Shown here: piece by piece, positions 10,624 through 29,007 of the stretch
How positions within the stretch are numbered: position 1 is the first letter of the stretch
Layout: each line of letters begins with the position of its first letter
Source of the DNA: a virus
Reading direction: 5' to 3' (one strand)
IMG/VR virus record: IMGVR_UViG_3300031687_000077
Span: 1-29,214 of that record
Length of the DNA stretch: 29,214 nucleotides
Position numbers and translations under genes: made by a program
Notes under the pieces: generated by a model
The model's database searches: none
Told to the model about the DNA's origin: nothing
Seen by the model: the letters and a program-made list of their open reading frames with translations, nothing else

Positions 10624-10699
10624 GCTGGATTAGCTCAGTTGGTAGAGCAACTGATTTGTAATCAGTAGGTCGTCAGTTCGAATCCGACATCCAGCACCA
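10624..10699 (+). tRNA. tRNA-Thr (anticodon UGU)
   Basis: The acceptor stem GCTGGAT pairs fully with ATCCAGC. The anticodon stem ACTGA/TCAGT closes the loop TTTGTAA, giving anticodon TGT for ACA codons. The T arm contains GTTCGAATC, and the discriminator A and CCA (10697-10699) are encoded. It starts one base after the preceding stop. Confidence 0.95.
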
Positions 10700-13967: not shown

Positions 13968-16279
13968 ATTCCCCGATGTTAGTAGTTAAGTCAGATGGTT
14001 CTAAGGTTCATATAGACCTAGATAAAATTCATAAAATGGTTCATAAGGCGTGTAAAGGTATTGCAGGTGTATCAGAGTCTTTAGTAGAAATGAACAGTGG
14101 TCTTCAGTTTTCTGAAGGTATCTCCACAATAGATATACAAAAGATTTTAGTTAAGTCTGCATCAGATTTAATCTCATTAGAAGCACCCAATTACCAATAT
14201 GTCGCCGCCAGACTATTACTGTTTGGTGTTCAAAAACAAGTGTTTAACACTAAGTGGAAAGACTCTACCATCTATCCACCACTCAATGAAATCATAGATA
14301 AGAACATAAAGAAAGGGGTATATGACCCTGAGATTCTTAATATGTATACTCTAGAACAGATACAAGAATGTGACAAATACATTAAACATAGTAGAGACCT
14401 AACATTCACATATGCAGGTCTACAACAAATCGTAGACAAATACTTAGTTCAAGACAGGTCTAATTCTGAAGTGTTCGAGACACCTCAGTTCATGTATATG
14501 TTAATAGCAATGACTTTATTCCACAATTACGAAGAAGAGACGAGATTAGATTATGTCAAAAGATACTACGATGCAATATCAACTTTTAAAATCAGTATAC
14601 CCACACCTATTATGGCAGGGGTCAGAACACCTTTACGACAATTCGCATCATGCGTACTCGTTGATGCCGATGATTCCCTCGATTCAATCTTTACGAGTGA
14701 CATGGCAATCGGAAGATATGTCGCCCAACGTGCAGGAATTGGAATTAACATGGGGAGAATACGAGGACTTGGTTCAAAGATACGAGGTGGAGAAGTCCAA
14801 CATACAGGAGTCATCCCTTTCCTCAAAAAGTTTGAAGCAACAGTTAGAAGTTGCACCCAAAACGGAGTACGGGGTGGAAGCGCAACGGTACATTTTCCAA
14901 TCTGGCATCAAGAAATCGAAGACATCCTTGTTCTCAAAAACAATAAGGGGACAGAAGACAACAGAGTAAGAAAACTGGATTATAGTATTCAGATATCTAA
15001 ACTATTTTATGAAAGGTTTTTAAAGAACGAGGACATAACATTGTTTAGTCCTCACAACACGCCTGGCTTATATGAAGCATTTGGAACACCTGAGTTTGAC
15101 GAACTATACGAAAAGTATGAACGTGCAACCTCAATTCCAAAAACCAAGGTTAGTGCAAGAGAATTGTTTACGGATATGTTGAAAGAACGTGCTGAAACAG
15201 GACGTATCTATATTATGAATATCGACCATTGCAATTCTCATAGTAGTTTCACGGACAAGGTGAACATGAGTAATCTTTGTCAAGAAATTACACTACCAAC
15301 AGACCCATTGACTCATATCGATGGAGATGGCGAGATAGCGTTATGCATTTTAAGTGCAATCAATGTTGGTATCATCAAGATGGATGAATTATCAAACCTA
15401 TGTGACCTTGCAGTGAGAGGACTTGAGGAACTTATAGATTTCCAAGAGTATCCTGTAGAAGCTGCAGAGAGGTCAACCCTCGCAAGAAGGTCACTAGGTA
15501 TTGGTTATATTGGTCTTGCACATTTCCTTGCAAAGAATAGAGTCAAGTATGACGACCCTGAAGCACATAAATTAGTGCATGAACTTACAGAGTCATTCCA
15601 ATATCATTTACTATGTGCATCAAATCAAATTGCATCAGAGAAAGGTGCGTGTGAAGGTTTCGGTGGAACAAAATATGCACAAGGTCAACTACCTATCGAC
15701 CATTACAAAAAAGAAGTCGATGAGATTACCCCTCATGTATTGAAACATGACTGGGAAAAATTAAGAACTTGTATTAAGGTTCACGGGTTAAGACACTCCA
15801 CATTGACTGCACAAATGCCGTCAGAGAGTTCCTCAGTCGTCTCTAATGCGACTAACGGAGTAGAACCACCTAGAGACTACCTAAGTGTCAAGAAGAGTAA
15901 GAAAGGAACACTTAAACAAGTAGTCCCTCAGTATTCCATGTATAAGAACTTCTATACATTACTATGGGATATGCCAGATAACGATGGATACATAAAAACT
16001 ATTGCAGTGATGCAGAAGTTCTTTGACCAAGCAATTAGTGGTAACTGGAGTTACAACCCTGAGAATTTTACAGATGGAGAAGTTCCTGTATCAGTTCTTG
16101 CAGGAGATATGTTGAAGACATATAAGTATGGATGGAAGACATCATACTACCAAAATACAATGGACGGGAAAACTGAAGACGTAATTAAGGATGAGAATTC
16201 AGCAATGAATGAATACATTCCACCTATGTTAAACAGTCCCGATAGTGAAGAGGAAGATTGCGATGCCTGTGCGATATGA
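13964..16279 (+). CDS. nrdA: Ribonucleoside-diphosphate reductase alpha subunit, class Ia
   Basis: The protein is 771 aa, full length for class Ia. It reduces NDPs to dNDPs with NrdB. Residues about 5-90 form an ATP-cone-like regulatory domain. Active-site features are visible: C230 in FASCVLVDADD, N437/C439/E441 in MSNLCQEITLP (the same numbers as E. coli), C461 in EIALCILSA, and the radical-transfer pair Y728-Y729 in KTSYYQNT. The C-terminal C766-x2-C769 (DCDACAI) would be the redox relay, reduced by the glutaredoxin encoded downstream. The start overlaps the primase stop (ATGA). A 2OG oxygenase gene separates it from nrdB. Confidence 0.97.
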   Translation: MNSPMLVVKSDGSKVHIDLDKIHKMVHKACKGIAGVSESLVEMNSGLQFSEGISTIDIQKILVKSASDLISLEAPNYQYVAARLLLFGVQKQVFNTKWKDSTIYPPLNEIIDKNIKKGVYDPEILNMYTLEQIQECDKYIKHSRDLTFTYAGLQQIVDKYLVQDRSNSEVFETPQFMYMLIAMTLFHNYEEETRLDYVKRYYDAISTFKISIPTPIMAGVRTPLRQFASCVLVDADDSLDSIFTSDMAIGRYVAQRAGIGINMGRIRGLGSKIRGGEVQHTGVIPFLKKFEATVRSCTQNGVRGGSATVHFPIWHQEIEDILVLKNNKGTEDNRVRKLDYSIQISKLFYERFLKNEDITLFSPHNTPGLYEAFGTPEFDELYEKYERATSIPKTKVSARELFTDMLKERAETGRIYIMNIDHCNSHSSFTDKVNMSNLCQEITLPTDPLTHIDGDGEIALCILSAINVGIIKMDELSNLCDLAVRGLEELIDFQEYPVEAAERSTLARRSLGIGYIGLAHFLAKNRVKYDDPEAHKLVHELTESFQYHLLCASNQIASEKGACEGFGGTKYAQGQLPIDHYKKEVDEITPHVLKHDWEKLRTCIKVHGLRHSTLTAQMPSESSSVVSNATNGVEPPRDYLSVKKSKKGTLKQVVPQYSMYKNFYTLLWDMPDNDGYIKTIAVMQKFFDQAISGNWSYNPENFTDGEVPVSVLAGDMLKTYKYGWKTSYYQNTMDGKTEDVIKDENSAMNEYIPPMLNSPDSEEEDCDACAI

Positions 16280-17276
16280 AGATAAGTTAGTAAAGATAGA
16301 ATTAGAAGATGTACCTGAAGGTGCTAAAATTGATTCCAAAGATGGTAAAGCAACCATTAAAGGATGGACTAATGACCTAACAAGAGACTTTCAGAAGAAT
16401 GGTTATGTTATTCTAAGAAATTTCATACCTAAAGACATTATCAATATGACCTTGGACTCATGGTTGTCACTTGAAAATAAACCCGAATGGAATGAGACCT
16501 TCTTTGATGTAGAAGAAGATATCATTCACGATTCACCTAAAGAATCTTTGAATAAATCTTCGGGATGTTACTCCTTTCCACCTGCAGTTGCACTACATAG
16601 ATGGTTAAGAGATAATCTCGACAAGACTATTGATATGCAACTCGTAGAAACCTATGCATACACTAGGAAATACGGAAGAGGTTCATATCTTAAAGCACAT
16701 AGTGACCGACCTTCATGTGAAGTAAGTGCAACGATTTGTCTTAAGTATAAAACAGATGACAATACCCCTTGGAAGATATGGGTTCAGAAAGATAAGAACT
16801 ATATCAATGATGCAAGAGGTGAAGGTCAACAAGTATTCTTTGAAGAGATGCAAAACATCCCTCATAGAGATAGAAAAGGAATACCTATATCATTAGAAGT
16901 AGGAGACCTCTTACTTTATCAAGGGCCGAATGCAGTTCACTGGAGAGATACTCTTTTAGGTGACCATTCATATCATATGTTTTTACACTTCATCAATCAT
17001 GGTGGACAAATAAATGCATTTGATAAATTCCATCAACCCAAGGAGAGACCAAGGTCAGACGGAAGACCTCATAATGTATTTGCATATGATGGAAGAAAGA
17101 GTAGATATCATCATGAACAACAAAAATATTTCCATGATGCGATGGAATTTTGGAATGAGTGGGGTGCTGGTGAATACGATTGGTTTGACCCATCAGAATA
17201 TATAAACAACTATGATATCATAGAAGACGTAGAGTTAACAGACAGAGAAAAGAGACTAATAGATGACAGTATTTAA
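16263..17276 (+). CDS. 2-oxoglutarate/Fe(II)-dependent oxygenase between nrdA and nrdB
   Basis: The protein is 337 aa from ATG 16263, which has a GAGGA site about eight bases upstream and overlaps nrdA by 17 bases. The double-stranded beta-helix signature is present: H146-x-D148 in KAHSDRPSCEVS and the distal His in NAVHWRDTLLG (H226). A hydrophobic strand with HMFLHFINHGG follows. Residues 1-35 form a separate small segment with a DGKATIKGW beta turn. The family hydroxylates small molecules, proteins or nucleic acids; the substrate here is unknown. The overlaps on both sides place it firmly in the dNTP operon. Confidence 0.9.
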   Translation: MPVRYEDKLVKIELEDVPEGAKIDSKDGKATIKGWTNDLTRDFQKNGYVILRNFIPKDIINMTLDSWLSLENKPEWNETFFDVEEDIIHDSPKESLNKSSGCYSFPPAVALHRWLRDNLDKTIDMQLVETYAYTRKYGRGSYLKAHSDRPSCEVSATICLKYKTDDNTPWKIWVQKDKNYINDARGEGQQVFFEEMQNIPHRDRKGIPISLEVGDLLLYQGPNAVHWRDTLLGDHSYHMFLHFINHGGQINAFDKFHQPKERPRSDGRPHNVFAYDGRKSRYHHEQQKYFHDAMEFWNEWGAGEYDWFDPSEYINNYDIIEDVELTDREKRLIDDSI

Positions 17277-21574: not shown

Positions 21575-21958
21575 ATGCAACAACTTTTAATAGGAGTAAT
21601 ACTTGTCCTCGGAATGGGTTCATATTACCTCTACAATCAAAATCAAACACTAAGTGCAAATAATGTTGCATTAGAGTATGCAGTCGAAGAACAGAAGGCG
21701 ACCATGACTGCACTCAGAGAAAACTTTGAGAGACAAACTGCCGCCCTTCAAAATATGTCTCGTAAGAACGCAGAGATTGAAGAAGACAAAGCAAGGTATC
21801 TATCCATCCTATCCAAACATAACTTTGAAAGACTTGCAACCGTCAAGCCAGGGTTAATGGAGAATAGATTTAATAAAGGAACGGTTGAAGTAATTGAGGG
21901 AATAGAAAATGACACTAAAGACATTAGCAATCTTGAGTCTCCTAATACTAACGACTAG
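21575..21958 (+). CDS. Putative inner-membrane spanin (Rz-like)
   Basis: The protein is 127 aa with AAGGAG before the ATG. It has one N-terminal membrane segment (about 3-20, LLIGVILVLGMGSYYLY) and then a long periplasmic coiled coil (about 25-90). That is the usual form of an i-spanin, which disrupts the outer membrane during lysis together with an o-spanin. The 3' end overlaps the lipoprotein gene by 50 bases in another frame, the arrangement typical of Rz/Rz1 pairs. There is no sequence match to lambda Rz, so the call rests on architecture. Confidence 0.7.
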   Translation: MQQLLIGVILVLGMGSYYLYNQNQTLSANNVALEYAVEEQKATMTALRENFERQTAALQNMSRKNAEIEEDKARYLSILSKHNFERLATVKPGLMENRFNKGTVEVIEGIENDTKDISNLESPNTND

Positions 21959-22406
21959 TTGTTCGTTAATACCTGAAAGAAAGGTAGAGATAATAAGTAA
22001 ACCGATTGAGATAGAAATCATTCAACCTACATTACCACGTCCCTTAGACCTACAACCACCAAAATGGTATGTAGTATCTGAAGCGAGAATCGCCAATCCA
22101 TGTAAGAAGGTTACACTAGAAGATGGAACAGAGAAGAGACCAAAGACTTGTGACCAAGACATGAAAACTAACCCCGAATGGAAAGAGGGTTACACTTACC
22201 TAGATAGATTCTTAGATGAAATGAGAGACCTGAACAGTGGTGATGTTGTATTTGTTGCAACAACTGTTGGTGACTACAAGGTCATGATAAAGAACAACCA
22301 AGAGATTAAGAGATACATCAAACAACTCGGAGAAGTGATTGTTGTATACAGAGACGTTACTATGTCAGATGGTCAAAAAGGAATAGTAGCAGAAGTTAAA
22401 AAATAA
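21909..22406 (+). CDS. Putative outer-membrane lipoprotein, o-spanin candidate
   Basis: The protein is 165 aa. The signal peptide MTLKTLAILSLLILTTSC ends at a near-lipobox Cys18, with Leu at -4 and Thr at -3, which is slightly atypical. After it comes a Pro-rich region (IQPTLPRPLDLQPPKW), as in Rz1-type proteins. A folded C-terminal domain follows (GDVVFVATTVGDYKVM and KQLGEVIVVYRDVT), making it much longer than classical o-spanins. The gene starts inside the i-spanin-like gene with a GAGGGA site. It could be an extended o-spanin or another periplasmic lipoprotein. Confidence 0.7.
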   Translation: MTLKTLAILSLLILTTSCSLIPERKVEIISKPIEIEIIQPTLPRPLDLQPPKWYVVSEARIANPCKKVTLEDGTEKRPKTCDQDMKTNPEWKEGYTYLDRFLDEMRDLNSGDVVFVATTVGDYKVMIKNNQEIKRYIKQLGEVIVVYRDVTMSDGQKGIVAEVKK

Positions 22407-22421
22407 GGAAACCCCTATATT

Positions 22422-23369
22422 ATGAAACCCCCAGTGATGCCAGAAGAACGAAGAGAGAAGACTGAAGAACAACTTAGTCATGAGGAGAAGGTATTCGATG
22501 CAATTAAAACAATACCAACTATGACTGAATTGAATGACGAAGGGACATTTGATGTTCCATTCGACCAAGTCCCCGACTCAGTAAAACGAAGTGCAGAGGA
22601 GATATATCCCCCTGTTCCCGATTCGTATCAACCTGCAGAGGCGATGTTACTTCAACTATTCCCTATACCATTTTTAAGAGGTCAACTTGACTTCGATACA
22701 GATGTAATTGCAGATTCATGTCGTGAGATATTACGAGATGTTGAACAAGGTGATGTAAACAATGAATACACTACCTATTTCAATGAAGAGGCACGAATCA
22801 AAATGCACGACACACAATGGTTCAAAGACTTCTCGAACAAAATCAAAGACTCATATATCACATTCATTGCGAATATGTTTCATACACCAGTCGCACATCT
22901 TTCAAGAAATGACATCCATCTATTCGCATGGATAAATCGTTACACTGGCCCACATCAACATGGCGCCCATAATCATGTCAACTCGCACATCAGTGGAACT
23001 TACTATGTCAAGACAGAACAATCAGACCAACCTATAAAGTTTTGGTCACCTAATATGATGGGTAATGCTAATCACCTTGCAGTCGATAGAAGTCAACAAA
23101 GGGAAGGATTCCCTAACATGGTATTTGATGGTGTCGCAGGTGTTGACTCTACAATTCAAGTATTTCCAACGAATGATGAGTTCCTATTTTGGCCATCATA
23201 CCTGTTACATAGTGTAGAACCTACTAATAATCAAAATGGGATTGCACATTACGAGAGAATATCAATCTCATTCAACCTTAAATACAGAGACACAATCGAC
23301 AATAATCTTACAGGTGATGATATGGGTTATGGATTCATGCAAGAGGAGATTGGCCATAATCGTGATTAG
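22422..23369 (+). CDS. 2OG-Fe(II) oxygenase, TIGR02466-like
   Basis: The protein is 315 aa with an AAGGAA site upstream. Residues 1-75 are acidic and probably flexible. The oxygenase domain begins near FPIPFLRGQLDFD. The metal site lies in GPHQHGAHNHVNSHISG (177-192), with the distal His in FWPSYLLHSVEP (H263) and an Arg in HYERISISFNL (R279) for 2-oxoglutarate. The pattern fits the putative 2OG oxygenase family TIGR02466, common in marine phages, whose substrate is unknown. It is the first of three oxygenase-like genes in a row. Confidence 0.88.
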   Translation: MKPPVMPEERREKTEEQLSHEEKVFDAIKTIPTMTELNDEGTFDVPFDQVPDSVKRSAEEIYPPVPDSYQPAEAMLLQLFPIPFLRGQLDFDTDVIADSCREILRDVEQGDVNNEYTTYFNEEARIKMHDTQWFKDFSNKIKDSYITFIANMFHTPVAHLSRNDIHLFAWINRYTGPHQHGAHNHVNSHISGTYYVKTEQSDQPIKFWSPNMMGNANHLAVDRSQQREGFPNMVFDGVAGVDSTIQVFPTNDEFLFWPSYLLHSVEPTNNQNGIAHYERISISFNLKYRDTIDNNLTGDDMGYGFMQEEIGHNRD

Positions 23370-23376
23370 TTGGATA

Positions 23377-23475
23377 ATGAAAAAGATATCCGATGCATTT
23401 GAAAGAATGATTGAACGAAGTTGGCAAAGGAAGGCAGACAGAATGCACAAACACTTAGGAAGAAAAAAGAAATGA
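23377..23475 (+). CDS. Tiny basic protein (32 aa)
   Basis: ATG 23377 follows the upstream stop by seven bases, and the frame runs to TGA 23473-23475, which overlaps the next start (ATGATG). The protein reads MKKISDAFERMIERSWQRK and ends in a basic LGRKKK tail. It is an amphipathic basic helix. It could be a real micro-protein or mainly a means of coupling translation to the next oxygenase gene. Confidence 0.5.
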   Translation: MKKISDAFERMIERSWQRKADRMHKHLGRKKK

Positions 23476-24173
23476 TGAACAAAACATACATAATGGACGA
23501 ACTATTTAAATTCTCAGATAGATTCGATGCAGAATTTGATGGTGAAGTATTGACCATAGACAACTTCTATGAGAACCCTGAAATCATCCACGACTATCTA
23601 GAACATAGAAGTTATCCCATGTGGAAATACTCGCAGGATAGACCATCACGCAACGGGATAGATTACAATGATTGCAGGATAACCGATAAGGTTGCACATC
23701 CTACTCGCACCTATTACAATGAAATGGATAGAGTGATAAGTCTATGTAGAAATTACTGGCATAAGGGAGAGTACGAATGGGACATGATTGAGGAGTGGAA
23801 TTGTTTCCAGTCAATCAACCAATTTGACACTAAGATGCAACACTACCCACATACAGATTCAACACTAGATTCACCCGATAATGAATCGATACTCAACATG
23901 ATTGTTTACATGGATAAACATGAAAGTGGTGGAACTGCATTCTATGACGGAACATGGTTATCTAATGATGAACATCAGAACTTACTATTTCCAGTATTAG
24001 ATAGATTTGAGTTACAGAGAGTAATCCCTGCAAAATTTAACAGATGTGTCATATTTCCTGGCAACCGTATCCACGGAGCATGGGTTGATGACTACCATAA
24101 ATATATGGGTAACGACTGGAGATATTCACAAGTCCAGTTTTTGAAACCAGTGAGAGAATGGAGAAATAAATAA
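23472..24173 (+). CDS. DUF6445-like protein, 2OG/Fe(II) oxygenase-type fold
   Basis: The protein is 233 aa, starting at the first of two adjacent ATGs (23472, 23475) with AGGA upstream. The iron site looks complete: H127-x-D129 in QHYPHTDSTL and H201 in FPGNRIHGAWVDD, with an Arg in WRYSQVQFL. Between them lies YMDKHESGGTAFYDG, typical of prolyl-hydroxylase-type domains. I recall similar proteins as DUF6445. It overlaps the next gene by one base (TAATG). Confidence 0.85.
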   Translation: MMNKTYIMDELFKFSDRFDAEFDGEVLTIDNFYENPEIIHDYLEHRSYPMWKYSQDRPSRNGIDYNDCRITDKVAHPTRTYYNEMDRVISLCRNYWHKGEYEWDMIEEWNCFQSINQFDTKMQHYPHTDSTLDSPDNESILNMIVYMDKHESGGTAFYDGTWLSNDEHQNLLFPVLDRFELQRVIPAKFNRCVIFPGNRIHGAWVDDYHKYMGNDWRYSQVQFLKPVREWRNK

Positions 24174-24766
24174 TGAGAAACCCCCCCGTAATAATAGTGG
24201 CACACGCCGCCGTCCCCGATGATATGTGTTTTGCAATCATTGACAAACACGTTGAAGCCGATGAATCCCTAATTGAATATGATGACCTAGGTGTAGAAAC
24301 CTATGCACTCATGGAAGGTACTGGAGACCATAGCGATGTTATGGAATGGATTGAACGGTATTTACCATGGGACGATGACTTCGGAAAGATATCCAACATG
24401 AGAATATTAAGGTATGGAATGGAATGTTCTAGACCTTGGATGTGTGACGACCCTGAATCAGGTGACACTGGTAAGGTGATATTTAACCTCAACGAGAATT
24501 TCGTTGGTGGTAACTTGTCCGTAGATGGACATAGATTTATTCCGTTTTGTGGAACTATGGTTGCATTCAACAATAGTACTGAAAGATGGCATGGAATCGA
24601 ACCTGTTCTAACTGGAGAAAGATTTAGTCTTGTAATACGATTTACAAGAACAGATGACTTCGTAGAACCTGAAGACAATATGACAGAGGATATGTTTGAC
24701 CAAGAAGAGTCTGCAAATGACCCTGTCGAAACAAAAGTATTCCCCAAGGTAATACTTAAAAACTAA
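24173..24766 (+). CDS. Diverged 2OG oxygenase-like protein lacking the first His ligand
   Basis: The protein is 197 aa, starting in the TAATG overlap. The fold pattern is present: RILRYGMECSRPWMCDD (77-93), IFNLNENFVGGNLSVDG (103-119), FCGTMVAFNNSTERWHGIEP (125-144) and GERFSLVIRF (148-157). H140 and R150 match the distal His and the 2-oxoglutarate Arg. The HxD position reads MCD (90-92), so the first His appears to be missing, which suggests a non-catalytic or altered metal site. Seven C residues directly after codon 2 (24181-24187) could cause slippage. The acidic tail (DNMTEDMFDQEESAND) is unusual. Confidence 0.78.
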   Translation: MRNPPVIIVAHAAVPDDMCFAIIDKHVEADESLIEYDDLGVETYALMEGTGDHSDVMEWIERYLPWDDDFGKISNMRILRYGMECSRPWMCDDPESGDTGKVIFNLNENFVGGNLSVDGHRFIPFCGTMVAFNNSTERWHGIEPVLTGERFSLVIRFTRTDDFVEPEDNMTEDMFDQEESANDPVETKVFPKVILKN

Positions 24767-24774
24767 TAATAAGA

Positions 24775-24984
24775 ATGTTCAATCCAACCATGAAGTGTGG
24801 AGAGTGTATGACAGATGTCAATCAACTCGACATTAAATATCATACCTCAGACGGTAGTAAGATATTTTGTGGGCCGAAGTGCAGTCTTGATTTTCATCAA
24901 AGGAAAAATAATGAGAAAACAAATAACAATATTGAAGATTTTAACAACACTAACAGCAATAGCACTACTAGTACAAGTAGTTGA
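24775..24984 (+). CDS. Small Cys-rich protein, zinc-binding candidate
   Basis: The protein is 69 aa. C8-x2-C11 (KCGECMTD) and a second pair in FCGPKCSLDFHQ form a possible zinc site. The last 25 residues are Asn/Thr/Ser-rich and overlap a second frame that encodes a hydrophobic peptide (24911-24997), which may explain the low-complexity tail. The binding site upstream is weak. Confidence 0.55.
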   Translation: MFNPTMKCGECMTDVNQLDIKYHTSDGSKIFCGPKCSLDFHQRKNNEKTNNNIEDFNNTNSNSTTSTSS

Positions 24985-24997
24985 ACTGTTCATATAG
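24911..24997 (+). CDS. Possible 28-aa membrane micropeptide
   Basis: ATG 24911 has AAAGGA upstream at a good distance and opens a 28-codon frame overlapping the Cys-rich gene. The peptide starts MRKQITILKILTTLTAIALL, one hydrophobic helix with basic N-terminal residues. Small phage membrane peptides of this form exist, but so short a frame could arise by chance. Confidence 0.35.
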   Translation: MRKQITILKILTTLTAIALLVQVVELFI

Positions 24998-25008
24998 GAA
25001 GGAAGAAG

Positions 25009-25260
25009 ATGCCGACAAAATTTAAAGACTCCCAAACCGTAAGGTCAAGAGGAGAAACCAAATCGACAACAACCCACCACTATATGAAAACTCAGAAAGT
25101 GGAAGTGTTGGAGAAAGAACTTGAGTCCTGTCGAGAGACAGACCTTGAGGGACGAGTGACTACTAAGAAAGGTAAGGGAAAACTGAAACAGAAAATACTC
25201 AACGAATTAGTTCGTAGACAAATCAGACCTTACAAAACACATTTCAAAGCAGTCGTATAA
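25009..25260 (+). CDS. Small basic conserved phage protein
   Basis: The protein is 83 aa with AGGAAGGAAG upstream. It begins MPTKFKDSQTVRSRGETKST with a THHYMKTQK segment, and ends with a basic helix (GKLKQKILNELVRRQIRP). I recall this N-terminal pattern in short proteins of marine phages. The excess of Lys/Arg suggests nucleic-acid binding; function unknown. Confidence 0.75.
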   Translation: MPTKFKDSQTVRSRGETKSTTTHHYMKTQKVEVLEKELESCRETDLEGRVTTKKGKGKLKQKILNELVRRQIRPYKTHFKAVV

Positions 25261-25280
25261 TAATGAAAGAAGGAGAATAT

Positions 25281-25934
25281 ATGAAAAATATATTAACAGG
25301 ATTGTTAATAACAATCTTATCTGCACCTGCATTTGCAGGGTCAGTATCGGGTGGTTTAAACTATGGTTCAGACTACATTTTTAGAGGGATGTCGCAATCG
25401 GGTAAACCGACTGCCGGCGCATGGTTACAATTAGATTCCGATTTAGGATTCTATGCAGGTGCATGGGGTAGTCAAGTAGACTTCTCATCCATGGACTCAT
25501 CAGAGACCTCTCAGGAAGTAGATTACTATGGTGGTTATAACCTACAAGTAAGTGATTCAGTGTCAGTAGACATGGGATATCAAAGACTTACATTTAATGG
25601 TTTAACACCCAGTGTTGAAGAGTTCTACTCTAAAACACAAATAGGTAATCTTGGTATCGATGTATATCAAGACTTAGAAACTAACGACAACTACGCAGAG
25701 ATATCATATGCATTCGGATGGTTATTCGATAACGCTTTTGATGCATCTCTAATGTTTGGTACTCACGATAGAAAAGGTGACGACTCATTCACTATGTTGA
25801 GGTTAGGTAAATCATTTGGTTCACAAAACCAATTTAACTTTGGAGTGTTAGTCGGTCAGAATGTCTTTGAAGGACAAGTTGCTGACTCAATCACTGCAAG
25901 ATTATCATATAACTTTAAGAGGAGTAACTCATGA
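25281..25934 (+). CDS. Outer-membrane beta-barrel protein, TIGR02001/Gcw_chp-like
   Basis: The protein is 217 aa from ATG 25281, chosen because AAGGAG lies six bases upstream; ATG 25263 is a weaker alternative. It has a signal peptide (MKNILTGLLITILSAPAFAG) cleaved after AFA. The mature part begins with SGGLNYGSDYIFRGMSQSG, the hallmark of the bacterial Gcw_chp/TIGR02001 family. It continues as alternating strands (LGFYAGAWGSQVDF, VDYYGGYNLQVSD) and ends with an aromatic C-terminal strand (ITARLSYNFKRSNS). In bacteria these are outer-membrane proteins of unknown function. In a phage it may alter the host surface or permeability during infection. It overlaps the next gene by an ATGA. Confidence 0.85.
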   Translation: MKNILTGLLITILSAPAFAGSVSGGLNYGSDYIFRGMSQSGKPTAGAWLQLDSDLGFYAGAWGSQVDFSSMDSSETSQEVDYYGGYNLQVSDSVSVDMGYQRLTFNGLTPSVEEFYSKTQIGNLGIDVYQDLETNDNYAEISYAFGWLFDNAFDASLMFGTHDRKGDDSFTMLRLGKSFGSQNQFNFGVLVGQNVFEGQVADSITARLSYNFKRSNS

Positions 25935-26113
25935 GTTGGTGGAATAACGTAACAGACTTTTTCGGATTTGAATGGGTCAGAGCAAGAGACGATAAAGGTC
26001 GTTTCGTTGCAGATGACAAGTCAACACCCGATATAGACGAGTCTAAAAAGAAGGTCTATAAGAGTAGAAAGACAACTACTCCTAAGAAAAAAACTACAAC
26101 CAAGAAAAAGTAA
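25931..26113 (+). CDS. Small protein with basic Lys/Thr tail
   Basis: The protein is 60 aa, starting at the ATGA overlap with the outer-membrane protein gene. The N-terminus MSWWNNVTDFFGFEWVRARD is amphipathic, then comes a DDKGRFVADDKSTPDI module seen in other marine phage proteins. The last 20 residues are Lys/Thr-rich. A run of eight T follows the stop, just before tRNA-Ala. Function unknown. Confidence 0.75.
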   Translation: MSWWNNVTDFFGFEWVRARDDKGRFVADDKSTPDIDESKKKVYKSRKTTTPKKKTTTKKK

Positions 26114-26123
26114 CTGTTTTTTT

Positions 26124-26199
26124 GGGGTCTTAGCTCAGTTGGGAGAGCGCTTCCCTTGCACGGAAGAGGTCGCAGGTTCGACCCCTGTAGACTCCACCA
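26124..26199 (+). tRNA. tRNA-Ala (anticodon UGC)
   Basis: The acceptor stem GGGGTCT pairs with AGACTCC (one G-U). The anticodon stem CTTCC/GGAAG closes the loop CTTGCAC, giving anticodon TGC for GCA. The T arm carries GGTTCGACCCC, and CCA is encoded (26197-26199). Confidence 0.95.
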
Positions 26200-26209
26200 G
26201 TTTCTAATT

Positions 26210-26299
26210 GGAAGATTGGCAGAGTGGTTGAATGCACTGGTCTTGAAAACCAGCAAAGGGTCAAACCTTTCGAAGGTTCGAATCCTTCATCTTCCGCCA
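26210..26299 (+). tRNA. tRNA-Ser (anticodon UGA)
   Basis: The acceptor stem GGAAGAT pairs with ATCTTCC. The anticodon stem CTGGT/ACCAG closes CTTGAAA, giving anticodon TGA for UCA. A long variable arm (AAAGGGTCAAACCTTT region) confirms a class II tRNA. Discriminator G and CCA (26297-26299) are encoded. It lies ten bases after tRNA-Ala. Confidence 0.95.
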
Positions 26300-26324
26300 C
26301 CTTTAAATCCATAAGGAGAATTGA

Positions 26325-26510
26325 ATGGATAAGATGACATTTATAGATTATAAATTTTATCTAAATGAGGATGGGAATGTATCGTTTGACGATGACCCCG
26401 ACCTCGGAAACAGAATAGGTATTAAAGAAGGTGACTTATTAAGAGTCACTAAGGATGCAAAGGGTCGGTTGACCCTTCAAAGATTCGGGTTTTTCGACTC
26501 AGGTGAGTGA
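26325..26510 (+). CDS. Small acidic protein, AbrB-like barrel possible
   Basis: The protein is 61 aa with AAGGAG upstream. It has an acidic middle (LNEDGNVSFDDDPDLGNRIG), then IKEGDLLRVTKDAKGRLTLQ, which resembles the GDxhxVxxDxxGRhxL pattern of SpoVT/AbrB-like swapped-hairpin barrels. The codons for KGRLTL form a 7-bp hairpin in the mRNA (26460-26477). Function unknown; a regulator is possible. Confidence 0.7.
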   Translation: MDKMTFIDYKFYLNEDGNVSFDDDPDLGNRIGIKEGDLLRVTKDAKGRLTLQRFGFFDSGE

Positions 26511-26535
26511 ATAACCTGTTGATAACCATATATAC

Positions 26536-26556
26536 TTATGTGACATTTATGTGACA
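26536..26556 (+). repeat. Direct repeat TTATGTGACA x2, 11-base spacing
   Basis: TTATGTGACA occurs at 26536-26545 and again at 26547-26556, one helical turn apart, in the 112-base gap before the 38-aa gene. Direct repeats at this period are typical of operators or paired protein-binding sites. The rest of the gap holds a weak GTC-GAAA-GAC hairpin and no gene. Confidence 0.6.
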
Positions 26557-26622
26557 AGACAAAGTAGTCGAAAGACGAAGTGCAGTTCACGGATAGTCAA
26601 CAACAATAACAAGGAGATAACA

Positions 26623-26739
26623 ATGCAATATTACGCATCATTGTCTGCCGAGTATATACATAGACTTGCAGACAACTTTCATACCATGATGAAGAGTGGA
26701 CGACTACATAAGGTTCTAAATCTTATGGAAAAGTCATAA
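26623..26739 (+). CDS. Small protein (38 aa)
   Basis: ATG 26623 has a perfect AAGGAG (26611-26616) six bases upstream. The peptide MQYYASLSAEYIHRLADNFH continues as a single Met/Lys-rich helix to MEKS. The strong binding site makes it a likely real gene despite its length; the in-frame extension to 26551 has no site. Function unknown. Confidence 0.65.
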   Translation: MQYYASLSAEYIHRLADNFHTMMKSGRLHKVLNLMEKS

Positions 26740-26746
26740 AAACCAC

Positions 26747-26775
26747 TTGACCTAATTCAATACCTCTTGTAAAAT
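26747..26775 (+). promoter_or_regulatory. Sigma70-like promoter
   Basis: TTGACC (26747-26752) and TAAAAT (26770-26775) are separated by 17 bases, upstream of ATG 26837. A late-type box at 26793-26799 follows, so the unit could be read both early and late. Confidence 0.65.
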
Positions 26776-26792
26776 AGGGGTACTGAACTGAA

Positions 26793-26799
26793 CTAAATA
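26793..26799 (+). promoter_or_regulatory. Late-type box CTAAATA
   Basis: The box lies 37 bases before ATG 26837, just downstream of the sigma70-like promoter, with an AGGA site between it and the start. Confidence 0.5.
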
Positions 26800-26836
26800 C
26801 ATTTATTAATTGAATTATATTATTATAGGATAAACA

Positions 26837-27700
26837 ATGGCAACGAATATTATCATGCACCAAAAGGATGGAGTCTCATCCGATGTTATAAACGACTCGT
26901 TCGTAAGACTACTCAAATACAGAATTAAGAAAATCTCAGAGGGATATAATGAAGTACGCTTTTTTTGTCTCACTAAAGATGCAACTGGTCTCTTACCCGA
27001 AATCATTCAAATCCCTATCAGAGAAGATGAGAATGTCGTGAATGAGGATTGGTATATCCTTCAATTGTTGGATAACCAACCTCAACTTGCGATTGACCAT
27101 TGTAAGAACATTCTTTGGAACCCAAGACTTATGCCACTTGACCTATGTCAGACTGCAATGTTGTTTGGAATGCCATTGAAGGGAACGACTGATAATCTAC
27201 CCGAAGGTCATGGACTCGATATTGAGACAAGACAAACCATAGAAGATAATGCATTACCATTCATGGAATGTCCTACAAAATGGTGGGATGATGGAAAGGA
27301 CAATACTTTCCTTGCACATTGGTATATGGCATGGTGTGGAGATGACCTCAGAAGTCTTGACAACCACTCAGAAGACACTAGTGGTTCCGTATGGGAATAC
27401 ATAGAGAACTCATTCAAAGGAGTTGTATTACCCACTAAACTTGCACAAATGAGTCCTTACTACCTTAACGATAAAGATAAGAATATTGAACTCAATGCAC
27501 AATACGAAGAAAAGGTCAGACCTTATTTCCCTGCAGAATTCTACCCACCACAAGCGGAAGAGATGGATTCAGAACTATTCTCATATGACCATGAGTGGAG
27601 AGACATCACACCACAAGTGCGATTTGTATATCTAGATGACCAAGGTGATTCGACCATTGAACCTAAATCAGATATGTATGCACGATTATGGTTTCTGTAG
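26837..27700 (+). CDS. Unknown 287-aa protein coupled to the DSBH/spermidine-synthase-like fusion
   Basis: The protein is 287 aa with AGGA before the ATG. It is acidic and rich in Trp, Pro and aromatic residues, with notable segments EDWYILQLLDNQPQLAIDH, FMECPTKWWDDGKDNTF and FLAHWYMAWCGDDLRS. A Pro-rich middle (YFPAEFYPPQAEE) precedes a final beta segment (QVRFVYLDDQGDSTIEP). I find no recognised catalytic motif. It shares a promoter and a 13-base overlap with the fusion gene, so the two probably act together. Confidence 0.8.
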   Translation: MATNIIMHQKDGVSSDVINDSFVRLLKYRIKKISEGYNEVRFFCLTKDATGLLPEIIQIPIREDENVVNEDWYILQLLDNQPQLAIDHCKNILWNPRLMPLDLCQTAMLFGMPLKGTTDNLPEGHGLDIETRQTIEDNALPFMECPTKWWDDGKDNTFLAHWYMAWCGDDLRSLDNHSEDTSGSVWEYIENSFKGVVLPTKLAQMSPYYLNDKDKNIELNAQYEEKVRPYFPAEFYPPQAEEMDSELFSYDHEWRDITPQVRFVYLDDQGDSTIEPKSDMYARLWFL

Positions 27701-29007
27701 GAACTACTGAACATCTAGTGTTTGACGACTTCCTCGGTAGTGAGGAGGCGTTGCATATCGCAAATATCCTTAGACGGGACGAACACAAAATACTTGCAAT
27801 CCCTAATACCTCTTCAACGGGGTATAAGGGAACAACTGCACAATATTCCGTTTATAATCTACTCACACATCCCGACATACGTCCCATGAATATACCTGAT
27901 AGGATATTCGACTTACCTATATTCCAACCCACACCTGAAAATGACTATGCAGAACTATGGGTGCAATGTTGGGGTAACGTACTCCATCAAGGACAAAACT
28001 TACCCGTCCATTGTCATGCAGAGAAAGAGGCGGAACATACCAATGATTTACTTGCGTGTTCAATCTACCTAGACGGTAAAGACCCATGTTATACGCATTG
28101 GGAAGACGGGAAACAAGTCAATGAACGAGGTACACTTCACGTTGCAGGTAAATTCCATGAACACGAAGTCAAGACCAACGTATTCACTGAACCACGCATA
28201 TCAATGGCGTTCGATATCTACTGGAATAGGGATAAAGTACTCACTGATTCACATAGACGATTCCTACACATACATCGAAAGGAAAACGTAGTCTATAAAT
28301 CCGACTTCAACGGAATGCCAATTGTCGTAAAGAAATCCGACACCCAAACCAAACTACATTTCGGACATCAATCAGACATAGTTCAAGCAATTATATTGAA
28401 CAAAAGTCCAACAACACTATGGTTCACCTATGTGAATCAATTATGTGGAGTAACCAATCAAGTCAAAGACCCAAAAACGGCACTTGTGTTAGGACTTGGG
28501 GGTGGAGTCATCCCTTCATGGTTACAAGAGAACACTAAGTGTGACATAGACGTGGTCGAAATCATCCCTGAACTCGAACAAATATCCCATGAATACTTCA
28601 ATATGCCAAAAGGTATCAATGTCATCATAGAGGATGCATTTGATTATGTCAGTAAAACCCCAAAACACTATGATATTGTCGTAGTGGATATAGGAGATGA
28701 GACATGGGAATTCATGGAACGATTTGATGATGCATTTTATAGAGACTTACAGAATATACTCACACCAAACGGATGTGTTGCAATCAATTACTTTGCATGG
28801 AAGGATACACCTGAACACGACAATCACTTAGAACAACTTAGAAAGACGTTCGGTCATGTAGAACTTCAACCCAACCCTTACCAAAAGAACAACAACTGCA
28901 TAACCTATTGTAGTAATCACAAACCCGACCATGGTACATACACAAACGCTGCTAGGTCATCAACACAAATAGATTCCAACGCAACTTGGGGCCCATTAGG
29001 AGAATAG
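27688..29007 (+). CDS. Fusion: oxygenase/cupin-like beta-helix domain plus spermidine-synthase-like domain
   Basis: The protein is 439 aa. Residues about 1-195 look like a double-stranded beta-helix domain: LPVHCHAEKEAEH (105-117) with H108/H110, then GTLHVAGKFHEHEVKTN (148-164) and EPRISMAFDIYW (168-179). A conventional HxD is not clear, so it may be a cupin-like or diverged 2OG oxygenase fold. Residues about 215-420 resemble spermidine synthases and related SAM-binding proteins: ALVLGLGGGVIPSWL (265-279) as the glycine-rich loop, VVEIIPEL (289-296) with the acidic residue, IIEDAFDYV (313-321), and YDIVVVDIGDE (328-338). The tail after about 420 is Asn/Ser/Thr-rich. The substrate is unknown; aminopropyl or methyl transfer linked to oxidation is inference. 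Confidence 0.82.
   Translation: MVSVGTTEHLVFDDFLGSEEALHIANILRRDEHKILAIPNTSSTGYKGTTAQYSVYNLLTHPDIRPMNIPDRIFDLPIFQPTPENDYAELWVQCWGNVLHQGQNLPVHCHAEKEAEHTNDLLACSIYLDGKDPCYTHWEDGKQVNERGTLHVAGKFHEHEVKTNVFTEPRISMAFDIYWNRDKVLTDSHRRFLHIHRKENVVYKSDFNGMPIVVKKSDTQTKLHFGHQSDIVQAIILNKSPTTLWFTYVNQLCGVTNQVKDPKTALVLGLGGGVIPSWLQENTKCDIDVVEIIPELEQISHEYFNMPKGINVIIEDAFDYVSKTPKHYDIVVVDIGDETWEFMERFDDAFYRDLQNILTPNGCVAINYFAWKDTPEHDNHLEQLRKTFGHVELQPNPYQKNNNCITYCSNHKPDHGTYTNAARSSTQIDSNATWGPLGE

Follow-up and report, generated by a model that had tools for sequence, protein, structure and literature searches.

A conserved cluster of oxygenase-like genes in T4-like marine phages contains a member with recurrent loss of iron ligands

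Introduction

That marine myoviruses carry numerous oxygenases is already published, and this kind of locus is known: S-SCSM1 has 24 oxygenases (PMC9602691), S-CREM1 has 10 (PMC9964418), and we count about 18 in Pelagibacter phage HTVC008M. In a structure-based study, many marine-phage oxygenases fell near the human prolyl hydroxylase EGLN3 (PMC12774648). Arrays of such genes occur in cyanophage syn9, where eight consecutive genes (gp47-gp54) include members of phrog_2696, 81, 2297, 1644, and 2954, in S-CREM1 (ORFs 72-80), and in HTVC008M (gp034-gp042). Among cellular enzymes, the ribosomal prolyl hydroxylases OGFOD1/Tpa1p carry a second, iron-free beta-helix domain whose suggested role is to bind substrate or partners (PMC4396695).

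Here we analyze a 29,214-base virus record from a T4-like marine phage (IMG/VR IMGVR_UViG_3300031687_000077; hereafter the window), which contains five oxygenase-like genes, each with a counterpart in the syn9 array. Like syn9, the window has a run of overlapping oxygenase genes from the same PHROG subfamilies, and the S-CREM1 run is similar; the order and companions differ from both of these arrays, each of which includes a JmjC gene, whereas the window has one oxygenase-like gene placed between nrdA and nrdB. HTVC008M shares with the window the grouping of PF13759, DUF6445, and small PF13640 genes, with a spermidine-synthase-like gene and a porin in the same cluster, but its cluster lies between baseplate genes and its transferase is a standalone protein with ~24-26% identity to the fusion found in the window. 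The porin that follows the HTVC008M cluster looks unrelated to the TorF-family porin of the window.

Results

Gene layout. The window carries primase-like, nrdA, nrdB, and glutaredoxin-like genes (nrdA and the glutaredoxin-like gene were identified by reading the sequence), followed by a spanin-like gene pair and then by the oxygenase cluster, whose members are all on the + strand. The open reading frames beginning at 22422, 23472, 24173, and 27688 were all found where an earlier note on this DNA had placed them, and family matches and motifs confirm its reading of three oxygenase-like genes plus the N-terminal half of the 27688 product within 7 kb. Between OXC, the third of these genes, and the orphan gene p26837 lie a gene for a 69-aa cysteine-rich protein (24775..24984), which adjoins OXC in most loci and has no match in a Pfam scan, and one for a putative porin of the TorF/Gcw_chp family (25263..25934; TIGR02001 1e-19, PF09694 3.4e-15), present in part of the loci only. 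Just upstream of the oxygenase genes, a small coiled-coil-like ORF with a membrane anchor (21575-21958) and an overlapping ORF with a lipoprotein signal (21909-22406) read like an i-spanin/o-spanin pair; the latter is kept in nearly all loci. A tRNA-Thr(tgt) gene lies at 10624-10699, and genes for tRNA-Ala(tgc) (26124-26199) and tRNA-Ser(tga) (26210-26299) lie within the cluster.

Oxygenase families and metal sites. OX5 (22422..23369) matches the curated 2OG-FeII_Oxy_5 model (PF13759, 1.6e-15) and phrog_81 (2.1e-30). Its three-His signature, H183-x-H185...H263, together with R279, is present in 61/61 homologues, and the same His pattern is seen on alignment to the solved structures 2rg4 and 3bvc. 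OX1644 (23472..24173) matches phrog_1644 (9.5e-21) and DUF6445 (PF20043, 1.4e-10), so that its curated match is to a family without known function, with PF13640 (3.2e-5) below the cut-off; a literature search on DUF6445 found nothing. All 60 homologues retain H127-x-D129...H201 and R217, and in most pairs the dN/dS of OX1644 is the lowest of the set or close to it, making it the most constrained member. The metal triad and the distal Arg, which in 2OG oxygenases usually binds 2OG, are thus without exception in OX5 and OX1644 (60-61 distinct homologues), as they are in all scorable sequences of the N-terminal half of OXSpds, the 27688 product.

The earlier note also pointed to an oxygenase-like gene between nrdA and nrdB. 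OXnrd (16245..17276, + strand) belongs to phrog_2954 (5.4e-37), as does syn9 gp54, and has no match in Pfam and none in a profile search of the PDB; the one feature that makes it look like a further oxygenase family is H152-x-D154...H232, invariant in all 58 distinct homologues that could be scored. PHROGs names phrog_2954 “ferrochelatase,” while the window member lacks a Pfam ferrochelatase match and has the H-x-D...H motif, and the family has been counted as ferrochelatase in published AMG statistics (PMC11561400). More generally, the PHROG names on these families (“ferrochelatase,” “minor coat protein,” and “DNA endonuclease”) clash with Pfam matches or motifs. Matches to PF13640 (some below cut-off) and DUF6445 are found for HTVC008M gp034, gp037, and gp039 and for syn9 gp51-gp53, and the names “DNA endonuclease V” and “minor coat protein” on those genes appear to be wrong.

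A beta-helix fold for the window oxygenases is predicted from their family matches. Each gene had been suggested to belong to a different subfamily, which is mostly borne out: none of the compared pairs of oxygenase family profiles align with each other, but OX5 and the N-terminal half of OXSpds share PF13759 and an H-x-H...H site and so are two branches of a single subfamily, OX1644 and OXnrd being of the H-x-D...H type. Because the compared profiles fail to align, recent tandem duplication was also rejected as the origin of the run.

An orphan gene and a transferase-like fusion. The gene p26837 (26837..27700, + strand; 287 aa) extends 13 bases into 27688 and is a constant part of the locus: all 27 loci that offer 7 kb of downstream room have it. 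It has no match in Pfam, PHROG, NCBIfam, or the PDB; a weak PDB match to RNAP-associated gp33 (E 0.82) was discarded. OXSpds (27688..29007, + strand) joins a PF13759-like N-terminal domain to a spermidine-synthase-like, SAM-binding C-terminal domain. The N-terminal half is weak by itself (phrog_81 4.1e-5), with 11 of 12 homologues matching PF13759 (best 1e-5), and H108-x-H110...H159 and R170 are invariant where scorable. This oxygenase domain is found in 18 of the 27 loci with downstream room.

The C-terminal half matches PF01564 (5.7e-9), NCBIfam PRK04457 (1.1e-22), and, by profile, spermidine synthases in the PDB (5e-17), and it misses the NCBIfam equivalog cut-offs by a wide margin (80 bits vs. 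304 for PRK04457, 36 vs. 250 for speE). Spermidine synthases have catalytic or acceptor-binding Asp residues in GGGD and D-x-x-D motifs. The OXSpds fusions share with them the SAM/dcSAM-binding glycine motif, the Glu, and the first Asp, but read GGGV or GGGI in place of GGGD and vary at the second Asp position of D-x-x-D (D, D, E, G, and N in the five). The residues of a true aminopropyltransferase are not conserved, and a SAM-dependent transferase is a likelier identity for this half than a genuine spermidine synthase. The fusion is confined to one subclade, occurring in five contigs only (the window, L003, L004, L007, and L025); a close relative, L005, whose N-terminal half is 59% identical, and all remaining contigs are N-only or cut off. 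A literature search for the oxygenase/spermidine-synthase combination in phages found nothing.

Conservation across loci. The comparative set comprises about 80 IMG/VR loci retrieved with OX1644 as bait, with identity down to ~51%, and gene neighborhood is conserved across it as a mostly overlapping group. Of the 59 loci with room on both sides, every one has OX5 upstream of OX1644, and 55 have OXC downstream. Coupling (-20 to +12 bases) is seen for OX5-OX1644 in 64/81 cases, for OX1644-OXC in 66/74, and for p26837-OXSpds in 27/31; in the window, 102 bases separate OX5 from OX1644, and the OXC start overlaps the OX1644 stop by one base. As the genes usually overlap, OX5, OX1644, and OXC are probably co-translated. 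OXC is missing from at least four loci and the oxygenase half of 27688 from some, leaving only the 22422 and 23472 genes constant among the oxygenases: OX5 and OX1644 are the constant core of the locus.

Most loci come from one broad phage lineage with shared gene order, so the conserved order partly reflects descent. Clustering within single genomes is weakly nonrandom (permutation p 0.01-0.2; 9-13 oxygenases per contig), two ~150 kb contigs related to the window having 13 (in one of 146 kb) and 9. Since chance clustering in one genome is only weakly excluded, we do not rely on it and take conservation across diverged loci as the real evidence. The earlier note had named independent occurrence across phages as what would speak against its reading; instead, the same subfamilies are found together in distant phages. 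In P-HM2, S-8S56, and S-H25, the DUF6445 relative of 23472 is solitary, between gp55 and gp47; the set thus recurs in distant phages, yet its parts are not inseparable. A contig scan for a cellular source gave two small MAG contigs that resemble misbinned phage, and such a source was discarded. In three related contigs (G001, G002, and G003), a split pair reading as the N and C parts of a carbamoyltransferase lies a few kb downstream of the cluster, and the G002 cluster contains sulfotransferase-like and GNAT-like genes, all of these names coming from sequence reading only.

Lost iron ligands in OXC. OXC (24173..24766, + strand) matches PF13640 above the cut-off (3.6e-6) and phrog_2297 (7.8e-8), and its profile finds prolyl 3- and 4-hydroxylases as its best solved relatives (3.4e-7 and 0.0015). 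Most of the 57 distinct homologues surveyed have H-x-D...H. The window reads W89-M90-C91-D92 where most homologues show H-x-D, giving a triad of M90-x-D92...H140 that retains Asp92, His140, and Arg150. The first His is missing from the OXC of the window and from that of locus L059, with no other His in the loop; Met replaces it in the window and in its nearest relative. Other lineages depart further: one clade has S-E...Y, another E-N...V, a third combines G-D...H with a substitution of the Arg, and in L099 the residues are N-D...N, so that some are without any iron ligand. No ligand-less OXC has another His in the loop, and misalignment is therefore not the explanation. In the same genomes, the ligands of OX5, OX1644, OXnrd, and the OXSpds N-terminal half are invariant wherever the residue is covered.

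Ligand loss falls on at least four branches of a 68-row backbone tree of OX1644, OX5, and OXnrd; the automatic count was five, from which one frameshifted row was set aside, the apparent loss in L075 being discarded as a frameshift or truncation. Pairwise dN/dS is 0.20, 0.24, and 0.26 for ligand-less OXC (two very close pairs give 0.49 and 0.52) and 0.18-0.27 for ligand-bearing OXC; all are rough values, since they come from plain pairwise counting and synonymous divergence is high in some pairs. At about 0.2-0.5, these values point to purifying selection on ligand-less OXC, which in those lineages is apparently retained for a role other than ordinary iron catalysis, with a metal site that is predicted to be empty. 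We regard the window OXC as a member of the oxygenase superfamily by descent in which the H-x-D...H triad is broken and which may or may not be an active oxygenase. Human AspH variants are still active when only one Fe ligand comes from the protein (PMC10947486); ligand loss is accordingly no proof of inactivity, least of all for the window protein, which keeps Asp92, His140, and Arg150 and may still work as an enzyme.

Discussion

We tentatively favor a phage cassette of the peptidyl-hydroxylase type in which OXC is able to serve as a noncatalytic partner. In an infected cell, OX5 and OX1644 would act on a protein of the host or the phage, hydroxylating its side chains with Fe(II), O2, and 2-oxoglutarate, and OXC, made together with OX1644, would bind OX1644 or the substrate, possibly adding a hydroxylation of its own where its ligands are intact and acting elsewhere as a noncatalytic partner only; the p26837-OXSpds pair would be a further add-on. 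The partner role is modeled on the iron-free domain of OGFOD1/Tpa1p, which likewise sets a catalytic beta-helix domain beside an iron-free one (PMC4396695), although there both belong to one eukaryotic polypeptide, whereas the phage proteins would be separate, co-translated, and joined in a putative complex.

The protein substrate is a guess from distant similarity, as PF13640 also includes enzymes that act on small molecules. Protein hydroxylation is favored because the OXC profile finds prolyl hydroxylases and because phage oxygenases fall near EGLN3 (PMC12774648). A collagen-like virion substrate was rejected, there being no G-X-Y repeat protein in contigs G001, G002, G003, G005, and G006. 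DNA, one target raised by the earlier note, found no support and was rejected as substrate, since Pfam, PHROG, and NCBIfam scans gave no match to a DNA-modifying oxygenase family.

A stronger claim, possible but held with clear doubt, is that OXC has repeatedly evolved into a pseudo-oxygenase, whose job as a co-translated subunit would be to keep OX1644/OX5 on a protein substrate or direct them there, in an active/inactive complex of separate subunits. About as doubtful, in our judgment, is ordinary accumulation, in which marine T4-like phages gather auxiliary 2OG oxygenases with unrelated substrates, this run is inherited whole as a lineage-specific island, and OXC ligand loss is relaxation; numerous oxygenases per genome (PMC9602691, PMC9964418), weak within-genome clustering, and the solitary 23472 relatives of several cyanophages suit this account, but the OX5-OX1644 pairing holds without exception in the 59 loci with room, down to about 50% identity, the genes are tightly coupled, the same subfamilies are grouped in distant phages, and the dN/dS values indicate that ligand-less OXC is not decaying.

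The earlier note had taken the set to suggest a multi-step modification pathway; in such a pathway, the oxygenases would act successively on one molecule and the SAM-dependent transferase half of 27688 would finish it. The conserved grouping on which such a pathway would depend is real, two chemistries are joined in one fused protein, and carbamoyltransferase-like pairs downstream, with sulfotransferase- and GNAT-like genes in one relative's cluster, would be in keeping with it if those readings are right. We nevertheless consider it improbable: phages such as HTVC008M and S-SCSM1 carry so many oxygenases that finding several side by side does not in itself indicate a pathway; OXC lacks an intact triad in the window and all its ligands in some lineages, and so need not be a catalytic step; the 23472 relatives can be solitary; and steps are absent from many loci, the fusion partner being in five contigs only. 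More improbable still is that the genes consume 2OG or O2 and thereby shift host nitrogen signaling, a drawdown proposed for cyanophages by Sullivan et al. 2010 (PMC3037559); this published hypothesis would account for the large copy number, but it has no need for invariant gene pairs or conserved distinct subfamilies and leaves the retention of ligand-less OXC unexplained.

Recurrent iron-ligand loss in one conserved cassette member is the new, testable point; our literature search found no description of it for cyanophage arrays of the syn9/S-CREM1 type. The question is narrowed to two genes that form a constant core, a third, co-translated protein in which ligands were lost several times, and an orphan partner, of a size that can be co-expressed. 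The common PHROG names on these genes are probably misleading, which would affect published AMG statistics. The natural ligand-less versions of OXC are ready-made controls for an enzyme versus a scaffold role, and the pseudo-oxygenase reading, if true, would offer natural ligand-bearing and ligand-less versions of one protein for comparison.
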